A stretch of 64,000 bases of DNA. Origin: Paenibacillus hemerocallicola (GTDB taxonomy: Bacteria; Bacillota; Bacilli; Paenibacillales; NBRC-103111). The translations under genes and the position numbers were made by a program. Shown here one piece after another: positions 36,394-43,418 of this stretch; position 1 is the stretch's first letter; each line of letters starts with the position of its first letter. The notes under the pieces were generated by a model. The model was given only the letters and a program-made list of their open reading frames with translations. It was not told the DNA's origin and ran no database searches. Where the stretch lies: positions 62,001 through 126,000 of the forward strand of contig NZ_VDCQ01000005.1 of assembly GCF_006265175.1 (NCBI RefSeq), in the 5' to 3' direction.

Positions 36394-36446
36394 ATTTAGT
36401 AGTGGAATAAAACCATCACATTTTACAACAATTGAAGGAGGATATG

Positions 36447-37244
36447 ATGTTGCAAAAGATCGAAGTGTTATTGGCCGATGACAACCGGGAATTTACTAAC
36501 CTGCTTTCCGAATTTATCTCCGAGCAAGACGATATGGTGGTGGCCGGCGTCGCATATAACGGGAATGAAGTGCTCTCTTATATCGAGCTCAACAATAAAG
36601 CCCCGGACGTGCTCATTCTCGATATCATCATGCCGCATCTCGACGGGCTTGGCGTGCTGGAGAAGCTGCGCGAGATGAATTTGAACCCGCAGCCGAAAAT
36701 CATCATGCTGACCGCGTTCGGTCAAGAAAACATCACGCAAAAAGCGGTCCAGCTGGGCGCCTCCTATTACATATTAAAACCTTTCGATATGGAAATTTTG
36801 ACGAATCGGATTCGTCAGCTTGTCACCAATACGAGTCCGATGACTTCCCATATCTCGATGAAGCCGAATGTCGTACCGATTACGAAGGGCAGAAATCTCG
36901 ACGCGAACATCACGAGCATCATTCACGAAATCGGAGTGCCCGCGCATATTAAAGGGTATCAATATTTGCGGGAAGCGATTACGATGGTGTACAACAATAT
37001 CGAAATATTGGGAGCCATTACGAAAACGCTCTATCCGGCCATTGCCGACAAATACAAAACGACCCCCAGCCGTGTCGAGCGCGCCATCCGCCACGCGATC
37101 GAAGTCGCTTGGACGCGCGGCAATATCGACAGCATCAGCCACCTGTTCGGCTACACGATCAACATCAGCAAGTCGAAGCCGACCAATAGCGAGTTCATCG
37201 CGATGGTGGCGGACAAGCTGAGGATCGAGCATAAAGTGTCGTGA
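36447..37244 (+). CDS. spo0A: Sporulation master response regulator Spo0A
   Basis: Spo0A, phosphorylated by the phosphorelay, decides entry into sporulation. The protein (about 265 residues) has a receiver domain with acidic residues ADDN (10-13), phospho-acceptor Asp59 in [12 protein letters not shown], switch Thr in MLTAFGQ and Lys in ILKPFDME. The C-terminal domain has [22 protein letters not shown] and the recognition helix [15 protein letters not shown]. Start codon is uncertain among ATG 36444, ATG 36447 and TTG 36450; 36447 gives a five-base gap from AAGGAGG. It has its own sigma-H/0A-box promoter and a terminator. Confidence 0.97.
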
Positions 37245-38173: not shown

Positions 38174-41122
38174 TCATTCCTTTTTGTTGCGGAAATGGAT
38201 CGGTGCTTGCCCCCAATAGTGGCTGTAGACGCGAGAGAAATGACTGGCATCCTGAAATCCGCTCGCCGCCGCTGCTTCATATACTTTCATGCCGGATTCG
38301 AGCAACGCTTTGGCCCGCTGCATCCGCTGCTGAAGCACGTAATCGGAGAAGGGGAGACCGATCTCCTTCTTGAACAGACGGCTCAAATAAACGGGATGGA
38401 TCCCGCCCCGGTCGGCAGCCTCCTGCAAAGACAGCTTCTTGTGAAGCTCCCGCTGCACAAGGGCGACGGTCTCGCGAATAATCGGATGCCTTACCGACTC
38501 GACCGTTCTCTTCGCCGCGGAAATCACTTCTCCCGCCAATTGAAGCAGCAGCGAGAAGCCCTGCTCCGGAGCCCGGATGTCCGCGTGCGACAGAGGGTTG
38601 GCAATGTCGGAACCGAAGCCGTCGTCAAAGCTCCAGCCTCGACGTTCCGCATGGCGGATTAACAGCAGACAACCGTCGAGCAGGTGCGTCCGCCAATGGT
38701 CGGAGGGCGAGCCGGAGACGTTCATTTTGCCGTTCCACCATGAGGTTAAGGCGGCTTCAACTTCGGCCAGGACGCAGGTGTCCAACGCGATATGGAGCCA
38801 TTGGACGGAATCGTCGCGGGTCTCGTCCGTGCCTCTTCCTGAAAGCGGCAGCGATTCGGCGCTGTCTTGCTTTTGCACGTTCGACTGTTCCGGCTCCGGG
38901 GAACGATAGCCGATTTCGATCCGGAGCGGCTCTCCGTCGTTCGGTGCTTCCTCGGCAAACAGCCGGAGCGTGCCTGCGGTCCGATCGAATTTCCAACCGG
39001 TCAGAGGATTTCTTCGAGCGGAGCTCGGCGTTTGCTCCAAGCTCCGTTCTCCACCAAGATGAACCGCCGCCGGTTTTTCGTCAGTATGCACGATCACCTC
39101 GTAGCCGCGATGCTGCGGCATACCCACATAAGTTCCTCCGCGCCGCCAAATACGAATCTCGATCCGATCTCCGACTGCCTCGCATCGTATGCGGGTAGTC
39201 GATACCCGACCATCCTCATATTCGAAGCTGACGCCGTCATCCTCGCGCAGTACGGTCTCGTTAAATCCATGCGGATAAACGTGCAGCACGATCCGTTCCG
39301 CGCTTGTTTGACCGATAAAGTCCATATCCGGCCGCATCGGTATAATCGCTCCCGCACGTACGAAAAGCGGACCGCCCGCATGCTCGGGCACCTTGTAATC
39401 GATCGCAGCCGGACCTTCGAAGCGATCTCCCGTCCAATAGTCGATCCAAACGCCTTTCGGCAAATAGACGAGGTTGGTGAAAACGGCCACAAGCAATTCC
39501 GCGCCAAGCATGTATTGGCTGCTCAAGCGGCGGCAATTCGGGTCGTCCGGAAAGGCGAGCGGCATCGCCCTGGCAATGGGCATACCCGTCAGCGAAGCCG
39601 TATGCGCGGTCGAATACAAGTAGGGCAACAGTCTGTAGCGCAGACGCGCATACAAGCGGAACAGCCCGCGCTGCTTTTCTTCCAGAAAGCACGGATGGCG
39701 GAAATGTCTGCCGGAATTGTTTTGCGCCCAAGGCAGCAAAAAACCGGCATGAATGCCTTCCGGCTCGTCTACGTGCATATGAATCGCCGTATGCACATGG
39801 CCGGATAAACCGGAATTTAGCGCGGAAATGACGGCTGTCGACCGCAAACCGTATTTTCCGCATTCGGTGGCGGTAAACTGCTGCATGCCGGTATAGCCGA
39901 CCACGGCGTGAATCATCGGCCGTTTGCCGGTTTTTGCGCGGTAGCCCTCGTACATTTGCTTGCCGAGCAAAATCGGATACAGGTTATGCAGCTCGTTATC
40001 CGACATTCCGTTGGCGTAGCGCCGGTCGGGATGCGGAATCGTCTGATTTTGACTCGGAACTTTGAACGCGTCGACGCCGTCGTCGATAAAGGCGAGCAAT
40101 TGGTCGAACCATGCTTTTTCCGTTTCCCCGCCCGATGACGACGAAGGAAGGTCTGCCGGCCGTCCCTCCAAGGCGGTAACGTCATGATCGCACGAAAGCA
40201 ATAGACTGAGCTTGAAGCCGTGCCTGTGCAGCGTATCGATGAACGCGGACGATTCGCTGCCCGGGTCGGATGAAATAACGAGGCGGCGTGTATCCCCGGG
40301 TCCGCTTCCGGAGCCGTCCGGAACCGCGGCCGTCCAGCCGTCCGACAGGCCGATCAGATCGCATGGAATCCCCTCTTGACGGAACTTCAGAGCATCCTCC
40401 ACAATTTGCCTGCCGCCCGATTCCACGCTGCAAAAATAATGAAGGCCGTACGCCCACATCGGCAGCAGTCGAGGTTTACCGGCTATATCGGTATAACGGT
40501 TCATCAGTTGTTCATAGCCGTTTCCGCAAATAAGATAAAAATCGAGCTCGCCTTCCGGACCGGAGATCAGAATACGATCCTTGCTCTCCTTCCCGATGTC
40601 GATGGAATGCTTCCAAGAAGTATTCATCAAGACGGCCCAACCCCGGCTGCTCATGAGGAACGGAACCGGGGAATGGAAATTGGTCCCGGCGACCCACATA
40701 TCCGCCTTCTGGCCTCGCCGATCGATCCGGTCGGGAGCCACGTCCCCGAGTCCGTATATCGCTTCTTCTTCGAGAAGGGCCAACCGCATGCCGAAGCCGG
40801 CCGAAGCCGAGGACCATGGAGCCTCGGTCGTGCAAACGCAGGCGTTCCCGTCGCTATCGTTCCAGCGAAATTGTCCGTCCGTCGATTCGACGCACAGTTT
40901 TGCCGCTTCGGTATGCACGGAGATCGTATTTCCGTCGCGTTCAGTCGAGTACGGAACGCGATCGCGGGGCTGGCCGACAACGCCATAACGGACTAGAGCC
41001 GGTTCGGGAAATAATCCGGTATCGTTCAGCCGGATCCGGTATGTATGAGGGGCTACGGGATTTATGAGCATCCAACCGCCCTGATCCAATTCGAACAAAA
41101 AGCCGTTTGCTTGCCGACTCAT
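38174..41122 (-). CDS. Degenerate GH31-like glycosidase fused to AraC-type DNA-binding domain
   Basis: About 740 N-terminal residues have the GH31 alpha-glucosidase/xylosidase order: a beta-rich N-terminal domain, a TIM-barrel (IYGLGDVAPDRIDRRG, PMWAYGLHYFCS, DGVDAFKVPSQN, GMSDNELHNLYP) and C-terminal beta domains (LPKGVWIDYWTGDRFEG). Residues about 880-982 form an AraC HTH pair (SLQEAADRGGIHPVYLSRLF and SHFSRVYSHYW). The motif that holds the nucleophile, normally FKTDFGE, reads FKVPSQN, and the WGGD acid/base motif is absent (ATECGKYG). The fold is therefore likely kept for sugar binding, not hydrolysis. ATG 41122 is chosen; GTG 41131 is possible. It is divergent from two Gfo/Idh genes. Confidence 0.88.
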   Translation of the reverse strand: MSRQANGFLFELDQGGWMLINPVAPHTYRIRLNDTGLFPEPALVRYGVVGQPRDRVPYSTERDGNTISVHTEAAKLCVESTDGQFRWNDSDGNACVCTTEAPWSSASAGFGMRLALLEEEAIYGLGDVAPDRIDRRGQKADMWVAGTNFHSPVPFLMSSRGWAVLMNTSWKHSIDIGKESKDRILISGPEGELDFYLICGNGYEQLMNRYTDIAGKPRLLPMWAYGLHYFCSVESGGRQIVEDALKFRQEGIPCDLIGLSDGWTAAVPDGSGSGPGDTRRLVISSDPGSESSAFIDTLHRHGFKLSLLLSCDHDVTALEGRPADLPSSSSGGETEKAWFDQLLAFIDDGVDAFKVPSQNQTIPHPDRRYANGMSDNELHNLYPILLGKQMYEGYRAKTGKRPMIHAVVGYTGMQQFTATECGKYGLRSTAVISALNSGLSGHVHTAIHMHVDEPEGIHAGFLLPWAQNNSGRHFRHPCFLEEKQRGLFRLYARLRYRLLPYLYSTAHTASLTGMPIARAMPLAFPDDPNCRRLSSQYMLGAELLVAVFTNLVYLPKGVWIDYWTGDRFEGPAAIDYKVPEHAGGPLFVRAGAIIPMRPDMDFIGQTSAERIVLHVYPHGFNETVLREDDGVSFEYEDGRVSTTRIRCEAVGDRIEIRIWRRGGTYVGMPQHRGYEVIVHTDEKPAAVHLGGERSLEQTPSSARRNPLTGWKFDRTAGTLRLFAEEAPNDGEPLRIEIGYRSPEPEQSNVQKQDSAESLPLSGRGTDETRDDSVQWLHIALDTCVLAEVEAALTSWWNGKMNVSGSPSDHWRTHLLDGCLLLIRHAERRGWSFDDGFGSDIANPLSHADIRAPEQGFSLLLQLAGEVISAAKRTVESVRHPIIRETVALVQRELHKKLSLQEAADRGGIHPVYLSRLFKKEIGLPFSDYVLQQRMQRAKALLESGMKVYEAAAASGFQDASHFSRVYSHYWGQAPIHFRNKKE

Positions 41123-41184
41123 CGGCTTCACCCCCGTCTCTCCCCATCATATCATGCTAGGTCGAAGGAGGATATAAGTAAAGG

Positions 41185-41205
41185 TTATGAACCGTCATGA
41201 ATCGA
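41185..41205 (+). promoter_or_regulatory. Direct repeat in the divergent GH31-like/AraC - dehydrogenase promoter region
   Basis: TTATGAACCG (from 41185) and TCATGAATCG (from 41196) repeat an ATGAA core ten bases apart, one helical turn. AraC-family dimers or two-HTH monomers bind such direct repeats. The link to the neighbouring regulator is inference. Confidence 0.35.
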
Positions 41206-41330
41206 TCGATAAAAGGTTTACAATAGCAAAGAAAATGTCATTTCGGTTACGTATACGGTCGACGCCCTTTTTGTTATTCTGTAGTACGAAAGCAGCAAAA
41301 CATACGGAAAATGCGGGGAGACGGTAGCGA

Positions 41331-42347
41331 ATGTCTTATCGGTTTGGGGTTGTCGGTTGTCGTCACGGACACATTCAAAGCTTTATCGCGGATATGCTGG
41401 ACAGGGGGCATACTTGCGCCGGAATATATGATCCCGAAGATTGGAAGCTTGCGCGCCAATATGCGGAACGTTTCAACATTCCGATCGTAGAGCGTGCGGA
41501 GGAATTGTTGAATCGTAACGTACATATTGTCGGATCCTCGGCGGTCAACAATGAGAAAATCGATCTGATCGAAGCTTGCGAACGGAACGGCCAACATCTA
41601 CTGCTCGACAAGCCGGCCGTTACCGACCGGTCCGGACTTCAGCGGCTCGAAGCCGTCGTCCGGCGCGGCGCGATTCAGATCGGAATGATGCTGCCGAAGC
41701 GATTCTGGGGCTACTTGACCGCATTGAAAAGGGAAATCGAGTCGGGCGCTTTGGGGCAGCTCGTTACGATTTATATTAGCAGTCCCCACAAGCTGATGCC
41801 CGCTTCGCGCGATGCGTGGCATTTCTCCAAAGAGCGCAACGGCGGAGTGCTCATCGACCTGCTTATTCACGATATGGACTTGCTGCGCTGGCTGACGGGC
41901 CAAGAGATCGTGATGACGCAAAGCGTCATGTCGAAAACCATTTTGCCCGAATACCCCGATTTTTACGATGCCGCATGCGTGCAGGTCGTGATGGGAGACG
42001 GCACCTCGGCCCAGCTGTATGCGGATTGGCATACGCCGGCGAACAACAAGGACGGGCGCTACAGCCGCATCGTCATCGCGGGGACGGAAGGGTATGCGGA
42101 GTACGGAGTTTGTTACGATCCGGCAGAAGGGAAAGAAAAGACGCGGCTGCGCATCACGCGCGGCGACGGACCGGATCAAGGCGGGATTTATTTGCAGCCG
42201 GATGCGGATTCGTCTACGGCATTGAGCGATTTTCTTGATCGCGTGGAAGGCAAACCGGGCTCGTTTACGCACCAGGACATCGTAGCGGCCAGCAGGGCGA
42301 CGATCGAAGCGGACGAGCAGGCGGTTATACGGAATCGTTTTGCATAA
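41331..42347 (+). CDS. Gfo/Idh/MocA family oxidoreductase (first of pair)
   Basis: This is an NAD(P)-dependent sugar or inositol dehydrogenase-like protein of 338 residues. The N-terminal Rossmann fold starts FGVVGCRHGHIQSF, and the family EKP motif appears as DKPAVT near residues 92-97. The C-terminal domain has NGGVLIDLLIHDMDLLRWLTG, where His is the likely catalytic residue. The glycine motif is atypical (GCRHGH). It is followed 21 bases later by a second family member and preceded by a 200-base region shared with the divergent GH31-like/AraC gene. Substrate is unknown. Confidence 0.87.
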   Translation: MSYRFGVVGCRHGHIQSFIADMLDRGHTCAGIYDPEDWKLARQYAERFNIPIVERAEELLNRNVHIVGSSAVNNEKIDLIEACERNGQHLLLDKPAVTDRSGLQRLEAVVRRGAIQIGMMLPKRFWGYLTALKREIESGALGQLVTIYISSPHKLMPASRDAWHFSKERNGGVLIDLLIHDMDLLRWLTGQEIVMTQSVMSKTILPEYPDFYDAACVQVVMGDGTSAQLYADWHTPANNKDGRYSRIVIAGTEGYAEYGVCYDPAEGKEKTRLRITRGDGPDQGGIYLQPDADSSTALSDFLDRVEGKPGSFTHQDIVAASRATIEADEQAVIRNRFA

Positions 42348-42368: not shown

Positions 42369-43418
42369 ATGAACAAGAAACGGGACAAATCGAACGTAGG
42401 GGCGGCCGTCATCGGACTCGGACGCGGCCGTGCACACATCGAAGCGCTTATCCGGGCGGAGGGCGCAGAGCTGTTGGCGGTTTGCGACAAAAACAAGGAA
42501 ACGGCGGAACGGTTCGCCGCCAAGTATGAGGTCGACGCCTATACCGATCTCGGAGAAATGCTGAAGCGCGACGACATCGATCTCGTTCACGTCTGCACTC
42601 CGAGCGGCCTTCATACCGAGATGCTGCTGCAAATCGCCGAAGCGGGCAAGCATGCGATTACGGAGAAGCCGCTCGATATAACGCTTGAACGGATCGACCG
42701 CGCCATCGAAGCGTTCGCCACGCGGCAGCTGCAGCTCGGATGCATTTTCCAAATCCGGCTGATGCCCGCCGTACTTGAGATGAAGCAGGCCATCGACGCC
42801 GGACGTCTGGGCAAGCCGATGTTGGCGAACGCGCAAGTCAAATGGTTCCGAACCCAGGAATATTATGACCAGAACGGCGGCTGGAGAGGCACGTGGGCAT
42901 GGGACGGCGGCGGATCGCTGATGAATCAGGCTGTTCATACGATCGATTTGCTACAATGGATGATGGGTCCGGTCCAATCCGTAGTCGGTCATACGCAGGT
43001 GAGTGCGCATCGGATCGAAACGGAGGATTTGGGCGTGGCGCTGGTCAAGTTCAGGAACGGGGCGCTTGCTACGATCGTAGGCACGACGGCGGCTTATCCG
43101 GGGTTTGGCACCTCGCTCGAAATTTTTGGTACGGACGGCGGAATCGCGATGAAGGACAACCTGATTACGGAGTGGAAAATACGAGGAGACGATATGGCGG
43201 CGGAAGAGGCGGATATGCGGCGGAAGTTCGGAGACGACAAAGCCGCTCCGCCGGCGGACACGACCTATGTGCAAATTCAGGATATGATCGATGCCGTGCG
43301 CAATAATCGGGCCCCTCTCATTACCGGCAGAGAAGGACGCGATGCTGTAGAAATCGTGCTGGCCATATACGAATCCGCCCGTGCGGGGAAAGAAATTGAA
43401 TTGCCGTTAAAATCTTAA
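42369..43418 (+). CDS. Gfo/Idh/MocA family oxidoreductase (second of pair)
   Basis: The 349-residue protein has a canonical Rossmann start (AAVIGLGRGRAHIEAL), the EKP motif TEKPLDITLE near residues 97-106 and the catalytic block GGGSLMNQAVHTIDLLQWMMG near 177-197. The C-terminal half is the usual open beta-sheet domain. It is co-transcribed with the preceding paralogue (21-base gap) and ends in a terminator. Pairs of these enzymes often work on a sugar and its keto form in turn; the substrate cannot be read here. Confidence 0.9.
   Translation: MNKKRDKSNVGAAVIGLGRGRAHIEALIRAEGAELLAVCDKNKETAERFAAKYEVDAYTDLGEMLKRDDIDLVHVCTPSGLHTEMLLQIAEAGKHAITEKPLDITLERIDRAIEAFATRQLQLGCIFQIRLMPAVLEMKQAIDAGRLGKPMLANAQVKWFRTQEYYDQNGGWRGTWAWDGGGSLMNQAVHTIDLLQWMMGPVQSVVGHTQVSAHRIETEDLGVALVKFRNGALATIVGTTAAYPGFGTSLEIFGTDGGIAMKDNLITEWKIRGDDMAAEEADMRRKFGDDKAAPPADTTYVQIQDMIDAVRNNRAPLITGREGRDAVEIVLAIYESARAGKEIELPLKS

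Follow-up and report, generated by a model that had tools for sequence, protein, structure and literature searches.

A GH31 glycosidase fold without its catalytic aspartates, fused to an AraC-type DNA-binding domain: a probable saccharide-sensing regulator from Paenibacillus

One gene in the window (the whole 64,000-nucleotide stretch of Paenibacillus hemerocallicola DNA that was analysed) encodes a GH31 glycosidase fold that lacks both catalytic Asp residues and continues into an AraC-type DNA-binding domain. The protein is probably a cytoplasmic one-component regulator, with a pseudo-glycosidase pocket that senses imported saccharides. The sensor would be the whole GH31 fold, which would bind a saccharide without cutting it. 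With the imported saccharide occupying the dead pocket, the change may be relayed by the helical MID segment to the AraC domain, so that the two are repositioned or paired differently on operator DNA. The divergent sugar-use promoter, that of two Gfo/Idh/MocA oxidoreductase genes, would thereby be activated (or released), and the fusion's own promoter would probably be switched too.

AraC regulators of the one-component type are already known, and so are sensors derived from enzymes. The AraC/XylS sugar regulators AraC, RhaS, and MelR sense their ligands through a cupin; the fusion resembles them in joining a putative ligand-sensing domain and a double helix-turn-helix (HTH) in one protein, but its sensor would be an N-terminal pseudo-glycosidase of about 740 residues and not a small cupin. 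Enzyme-derived sensors are found in ROK repressors, SorC, RpiR, and Gal80, and the fusion would likewise use an enzyme fold as a metabolite sensor. We know of no enzyme-derived regulator with a GH31 fold, and a description of a GH31-AraC fusion was not found in the open-licence PMC literature, which was searched partly by partial terms. Staphylococcus Rsp may be a GH39-AraC precedent, although the word 'hydrolase' was absent from the main text of the two Rsp papers searched (among PMC10766802, PMC6230762, and PMC7241556). If the proposed reading is true, the fusion would clearly exemplify the conversion of an entire catabolic enzyme into a transcription factor.

A single frame joining GH31 and AraC domains

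One unbroken open reading frame occupied positions 38174–41131 on the minus strand of the window (985 codons counted from GTG). The initial annotation had ended the gene at 41122. An ATG at that position, three codons inside the frame, is the likelier start because GGGGGTG lies six bases ahead of it; 41122 stands as a probable start, but the open frame itself reaches the GTG at 41131. The protein matched four GH31 domains and HTH_18/HTH_AraC in Pfam, each over its curated cut-off. Together, the single frame and the Pfam matches confirmed that a full GH31 region runs without a break into the AraC domain, as first proposed.

Both the GH31 fold and the GH31 domain order were present in the window fusion. 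The pseudo-GH31 N-terminal beta-sandwich and TIM barrel (approximately residues 24–507; 39611–41062, minus strand) were delimited by Pfam, AlphaFold2, and VIA-align to GH31 structures. A helical MID segment common to YesN-type response regulators was located by MID matches and AlphaFold2 at residues 770–877 (38501–38824, minus strand), and the AraC-type double HTH was placed at residues 880–984 (38180–38494, minus strand) by Pfam, AlphaFold2, and Foldseek. HTH_18 scored 70.4 bits against a cut-off of 33.6, the C-terminal double HTH that marks AraC/XylS proteins was present, and HTH helices were seen in the structure models. No signal or membrane segment was apparent by eye in the protein, as expected for DNA binding.

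The same continuous fusion was found in orthologues at 73, 68, and 62% identity, in named Paenibacillus records. Its occurrence in three independent assemblies ruled out a sequencing error or split gene, the objection that the initial annotation had raised against its own reading.

Catalytic residues and conservation of the fold

Catalytic residues were compared in an alignment of 48 fused and 34 unfused GH31 rows, with Escherichia coli YicI among the unfused; L-numbers (e.g., L044) are the labels of the collected loci. Frames shorter than 500 aa (the L105 halves, the partial L093 and L094 sister frames, and the first part of L115) were left out, as were loci L137–L148, a weak L086 frame, and the truncated L136.

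The YicI motif FKTDFGE aligned to FKVPSQN in the window fusion, with Pro in the column of the nucleophile Asp (YicI D416). The missing nucleophile position corresponds to the Pro-Ser of this motif (residues 359–360; 40052–40057, minus strand). The acid/base region read ATECGKYG, with Lys in the YicI D482 column and the motif absent; the altered loop is CGKYG (residues 424–428; 39848–39862, minus strand). Alignment to YicI thereby bore out both losses that had been read from the window alone. The replacements K426, Y427, and G428 were invariant across the window's four orthologues, in which the nucleophile site was P, P, I, and P and the acid/base site was K in all four.

Loss of the FARSAS and WSHDIGG motifs had also been taken as decay, a claim that failed. 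Unfused sisters with both Asp also lack these motifs, reading like YSxGGYxGIQQ and NTSCDM in their place, so their absence is no sign of decay. Among the four motif losses originally listed, only the two Asp losses discriminate.

The nucleophile Asp was present in 34 of 34 unfused rows and in 2 of 48 fused rows (L044 and L092), and two fusions (L048 and L101) had Glu at this position. The acid/base Asp was likewise kept in all 34 unfused rows. In the fusions this column held Asp twice (L089 and L097) and Glu twice (L045 and L094), in altered loops, and the acid/base motif [AGT]GD[TNC] occurred in 0 of 48. Fused homologues keeping both Asp, which had been named as evidence against the proposal, were searched for and aligned: both residues occurred together in 0 of 48 fused rows versus 34 of 34 unfused rows. 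The sister fusions L044:8963-12070 (own genome, C135) and L092:7881-10919, in which the nucleophile Asp was kept (FKLDG) and the acid/base Asp was gone, appear to be an intermediate state.

These few acidic residues, in four fusions at each position, and the intact fold found by AlphaFold2 and VIA-align would suit a trigger enzyme that still hydrolyses through other residues, or slowly, and both processes and senses its substrate. Such an enzyme is improbable, as the acid/base motif is gone from every fusion and the nucleophile Asp from 46 of 48 while every unfused relative keeps both, and as the window's orthologues carry Pro or Ile at the nucleophile site and Lys at the acid/base site.

Columns kept by 88% or more of 33 unfused relatives were counted as conserved, and those kept by less than 35% of the fusions as lost. 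Of 141 conserved columns, 14 were lost, 119 were kept by at least half of the fusions, and 60 were kept by at least 95%. The barrel contains 104 of the conserved columns and accounted for all 14 losses; the remaining 37 columns had none (Fisher p 0.011). Of the 14 lost columns, 7 were no more than 8 residues away from one of the two catalytic positions, as compared with 8 of the 127 other columns. An alternative listing, which skips one column falling in a gap of the window row, gave 13 lost columns of 140, including the equivalents of YicI W345, D416, and D482. The position of the lost columns in the barrel and near the catalytic residues indicates that loss is centred on the active site and that the scaffold largely stays.

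The four orthologues (62–77% identity) differed with dN of 0.15–0.30 and dS of 1.1–1.8, the latter near saturation. Identity was 71–84% in the TIM barrel (dN 0.09–0.23 versus dS of about 1 or more), 71–88% in the HTH, 55–72% in the N-terminal sandwich, and 17–44% in the linker. That the dead barrel is nearly as conserved as the HTH indicates a domain in use. A decaying pseudogene or an accidental fusion without function would account for the lost catalytic residues, and one broken and one truncated copy were indeed collected. This explanation is nonetheless extremely unlikely given 48 near-full-length frames, dN far below dS among the window's orthologues, and a barrel and HTH that are their most conserved parts. 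The broken copy, L105:7929-9995 from P. oceani, is a fusion in two frames (289 and 399 aa) and is probably a broken or misassembled copy. The truncated copy, L136:7908-9683 from P. allorhizosphaerae, is a 592-aa frame with part of GH31, MID, and HTH. A further 144-aa frame (L029; G000 C85:46907-47203, minus strand) carried a fusion-like HTH at 139 bits and adjoined, in divergent orientation, the unfused sister GH31 of L049; this frame may be what is left of a further fusion.

Distribution and origin of the fusion family

An alignment-based scan of one genome per species (84,980 species) returned 200 relatives; the 80 best, which were retained, made up 74 loci. Among these best 80 of 200 relatives, fusions occurred only in records named Paenibacillus: P. 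ginsengarvi, P. mesophilus, P. oceani, P. eucommiae, P. sp. 32352, P. sp. J5C2022, P. allorhizosphaerae (truncated), and one MAG. Unfused relatives in the same set came from Paenibacillus, Armatimonadota, Lentisphaerota, Verrucomicrobiota, Clostridia, and others. Of 392 genomes sampled from the order, 8 matched with an E-value of 1e-60 or lower. Sampling of the phylum (398 genomes) gave 24 matching genomes besides the window's own; with at most two candidates scored per genome, no match listed for these 24 extended into the HTH part. L150, a 1149-aa GH31 frame of another Bacillota, had no HTH match, and a single-protein scan of genome contigs confirmed 0 of 18 stretches.

In total, 48 near-full-length fusions were collected, all from Paenibacillus: 11 from the window genome, 14 from P. 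ginsengarvi, 10 from P. mesophilus, 9 from P. oceani, and 4 from elsewhere. Within its own 9.65-Mb genome, the window gene was accompanied by ten more GH31-AraC fusions at 39–48% identity and, from its own subfamily, by three GH31 proteins that are unfused. The copy numbers, counted from collected rows, are lower bounds: at least 9, 10, 11, and 14 copies in four genomes, an unusual expansion of one sensor type. This striking expansion is accompanied by unusually complete evolutionary evidence for the fusion family.

Trees of the GH31 domain were built without the catalytic columns. In an 81-row tree (the alignment rows minus L106) the fusions formed one side of a branch with SH-aLRT 97. In a 40-row tree (LG+C20; 40 of the 82 rows) the fused clade had support of 100/99, was found in all 200 bootstrap trees, and lay beside and inside Paenibacillus enzymes with both Asp. 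The trees thus support the direction first suggested for this protein, from enzyme to regulator. Most simply, a single fused clade inside intact enzymes points to one fusion in the enzyme lineage accompanied by catalytic loss, and with one origin the 48 catalytic losses are not independent events.

For the C-terminal half, three YesN-type response regulators in the window's own genome (receiver, GGDEF-like, and HTH_18) matched the MID segment at 71–92 bits. Among 55 AraC-HTH frames without a GH31 match in the set, three others matched MID: a 181-aa frame at the edge of L099 (68.8 bits), whose N-terminal part is cut off and which is perhaps another fusion, and two further frames at 24 bits or less. 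The MID match was absent in 6 of the 48 fusions (L048, L101, L104, L108, L110, and L135). In a Foldseek search of the PDB, the predicted C-terminal half of the window protein (pLDDT 83.4) matched YesN and AraT first; MarA and AraC were also matched. By MID score and predicted structure, this half of the protein is a homologue of YesN-type response regulators. Like the YesN-type AraC regulators, with their receiver, GGDEF-like, MID, and HTH_18 parts, the fusion has MID and HTH, but a GH31 fold stands where the receiver domain stood, and no Pfam match to a Response_reg receiver domain was found in the window fusion at E up to 1. Replacement of the receiver by a GH31 fold suggests that the input would be a ligand and not phosphorylation.

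The family probably arose when an intact Paenibacillus GH31 gene was joined, once, to the DNA-binding portion of a YesN-type response regulator. The acid/base Asp would have been lost as well, and duplication to about ten paralogues per genome would have followed, with the paralogues diverging in their pockets and neighbouring genes. The nearest solved GH31 structure, by sequence, to an intact sister was the FjDex31A dextranase (6jr6); compared with FjDex31A, the window fusion is without the nucleophile and the acid/base residue and has gained a DNA-binding half. General GH31 biology, this dextranase relationship, and neighbouring genes for polysaccharide attack and uptake suggest that the ligand may be an oligosaccharide and not a monosaccharide.

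On balance we favour, with less assurance than the sensing role itself, an expanded repertoire in one Paenibacillus clade: a single conversion, approximately 9–14 versions per genome, each dead site for a different oligosaccharide, each version with its own divergent sugar locus, and nearby intact paralogues sharing the ligand. If the pockets bind oligosaccharides, the family would offer a ready-made collection of intracellular glycan biosensors and would help to identify what uncharacterised GH31 enzymes and Gfo/Idh/beta-helix loci act on. Because close enzyme relatives persist, sometimes at the same locus, fusion, catalytic loss, and pocket diversification can be tested by comparison.

Divergent neighbours and intergenic DNA

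The gene upstream of the fusion was divergent in 40 of 47 cases versus 90 of 348 control pairs drawn from these same stretches, a few of which pairs may count twice where own-genome stretches partly overlap. Neighbour genes were called by our own codon-score script. L105 was left out of the count, its upstream 'gene' being its own first half, the truncated L136 was counted, and the first copy of L081 and L106 had no upstream gene within the stretch. Upstream classes, assigned by similarity to members named by Pfam, were as follows for the same 47 (without L105): 12 Gfo/Idh, 12 solute-binding protein, 6 unfused GH31, 5 beta-helix (pectate-lyase-like), 5 FAD oxidoreductase, 2 esterase-like, and 5 unclassed. 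The upstream gene belonged to one of six recurring classes, usually of a sugar-use type, in 42 of 47 cases. Solute-binding neighbours were set aside as statistical proof, since at least 150 SBP_bac_1 matches in the window's own genome make chance proximity high.

At the window locus, the Gfo/Idh/MocA oxidoreductase genes identified by Pfam, at 41331–42347 and 42369–43418 (both plus strand), are the presumed first and second targets, the first being divergent to the fusion. In three other species, the orthologue likewise had a Gfo/Idh/MocA gene in divergent orientation. The window's own locus had no transporter and no intact GH31 adjoining the fusion.

An unfused GH31 sister was present in the fetched flank of 10 of the 48 fusions: L045, L048, L086, L087, L092, L093 (partial), L094 (cut by the edge), L097, L101, and L107. 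This proximity, and purifying selection on every GH31 subdomain, would also be compatible with a GH31 part that acts as a protein-protein module, for dimerisation or for binding an intact sister or other protein, so that a partner controls the regulator and no sugar is sensed. Such a module is unlikely, if somewhat less so than residual hydrolysis: for most fusions, including the window's, the fetched flank contains no sister, the window's genome has 11 fusions to 3 unfused sisters, and the invariant replacements at residues 426–428 fit a remodelled pocket.

For the favoured saccharide sensor, the intergenic DNA offers candidate binding sites. The stretch between the fusion and the Gfo/Idh gene was conserved in blocks across four species. 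A motif like TTTCATGNNNNTTCATAACA, composed of two TTCATRAC-like halves 10 bp apart, was found upstream of 16 fusions in five orthologue groups, always in the same direction. The scan covered 44 loci, leaving out L105 and intergenic stretches shorter than 80 nt; the other 28 loci scored lower, and many such matches look like chance. In the window, a matrix from other groups placed the operator-like direct repeat ATTCATGACGGTTCATAACC, common to paralogues, at 41183–41202 (minus strand). With the held-out matrix, this was the top match in the 64-kb window (14.1 bits; next 10.4).

Held-out matrices were trained without the tested group and compared with 500 dinucleotide shuffles per locus. At 12 of the 16 loci no shuffle equalled the match; L076 was matched by 6 of 500 shuffles and three g4 loci by 8–16 of 500. 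At L075 and L121 the held-out matrix chose a different place than the full matrix. Nor is the test fully independent, as the full matrix had served to pick the sites used for training. Outside the window's subclade the motif was not found.

A candidate -10 element of the fusion gene, TATGAT (41146–41151, minus strand), was present in all four species. In eight g2, g3, and g9 sites (all but L079) a -10-like hexamer started 16–19 nt downstream of the motif, so that in these groups the operator-like site would reach the -35 region. The distance from motif to -10 was 28–32 nt in the window's group, and no good -10 was found at the corresponding place in the g4 loci. In the window's subclade, the motif would be consistent with an AraC protein that acts on the promoter of the fusion gene itself, and because of its location beside that promoter the motif may be autoregulatory only. 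A second conserved intergenic block, GTATACGTAACCGAAATGACATTTTC (41231–41256, minus strand), taken from the four-species alignment, is a possible candidate site for the divergent operon. A 15-nt direct repeat, AATGTCATTTCGGTT, at 41234 and 41330 was rejected as an operator pair, its second copy lying on the Gfo/Idh coding start. A sigma-70 scan gave one site, on the other strand.

The fusion lies one short gene from spo0A (window 36432–37244; Spo0A_C 153 bits), where a sugar regulator would not usually be expected. The orthologues in P. mesophilus and P. ginsengarvi likewise have a Spo0A-like frame downstream; in P. oceani none was found within the flank. In one subclade (L047, L099, L102, and L103), proteins of 1227–1260 aa were encoded downstream of the fusions, that of L099 with a heparinase II/III C-terminal match. 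These loci also carried an FAD oxidoreductase and paired Gfo/Idh genes, and their surroundings are possibly a polysaccharide locus. Beside another fusion subclade, DUF4838 proteins (L046:12139-15327 and L131:2905-6096) recurred together with a solute-binding protein.
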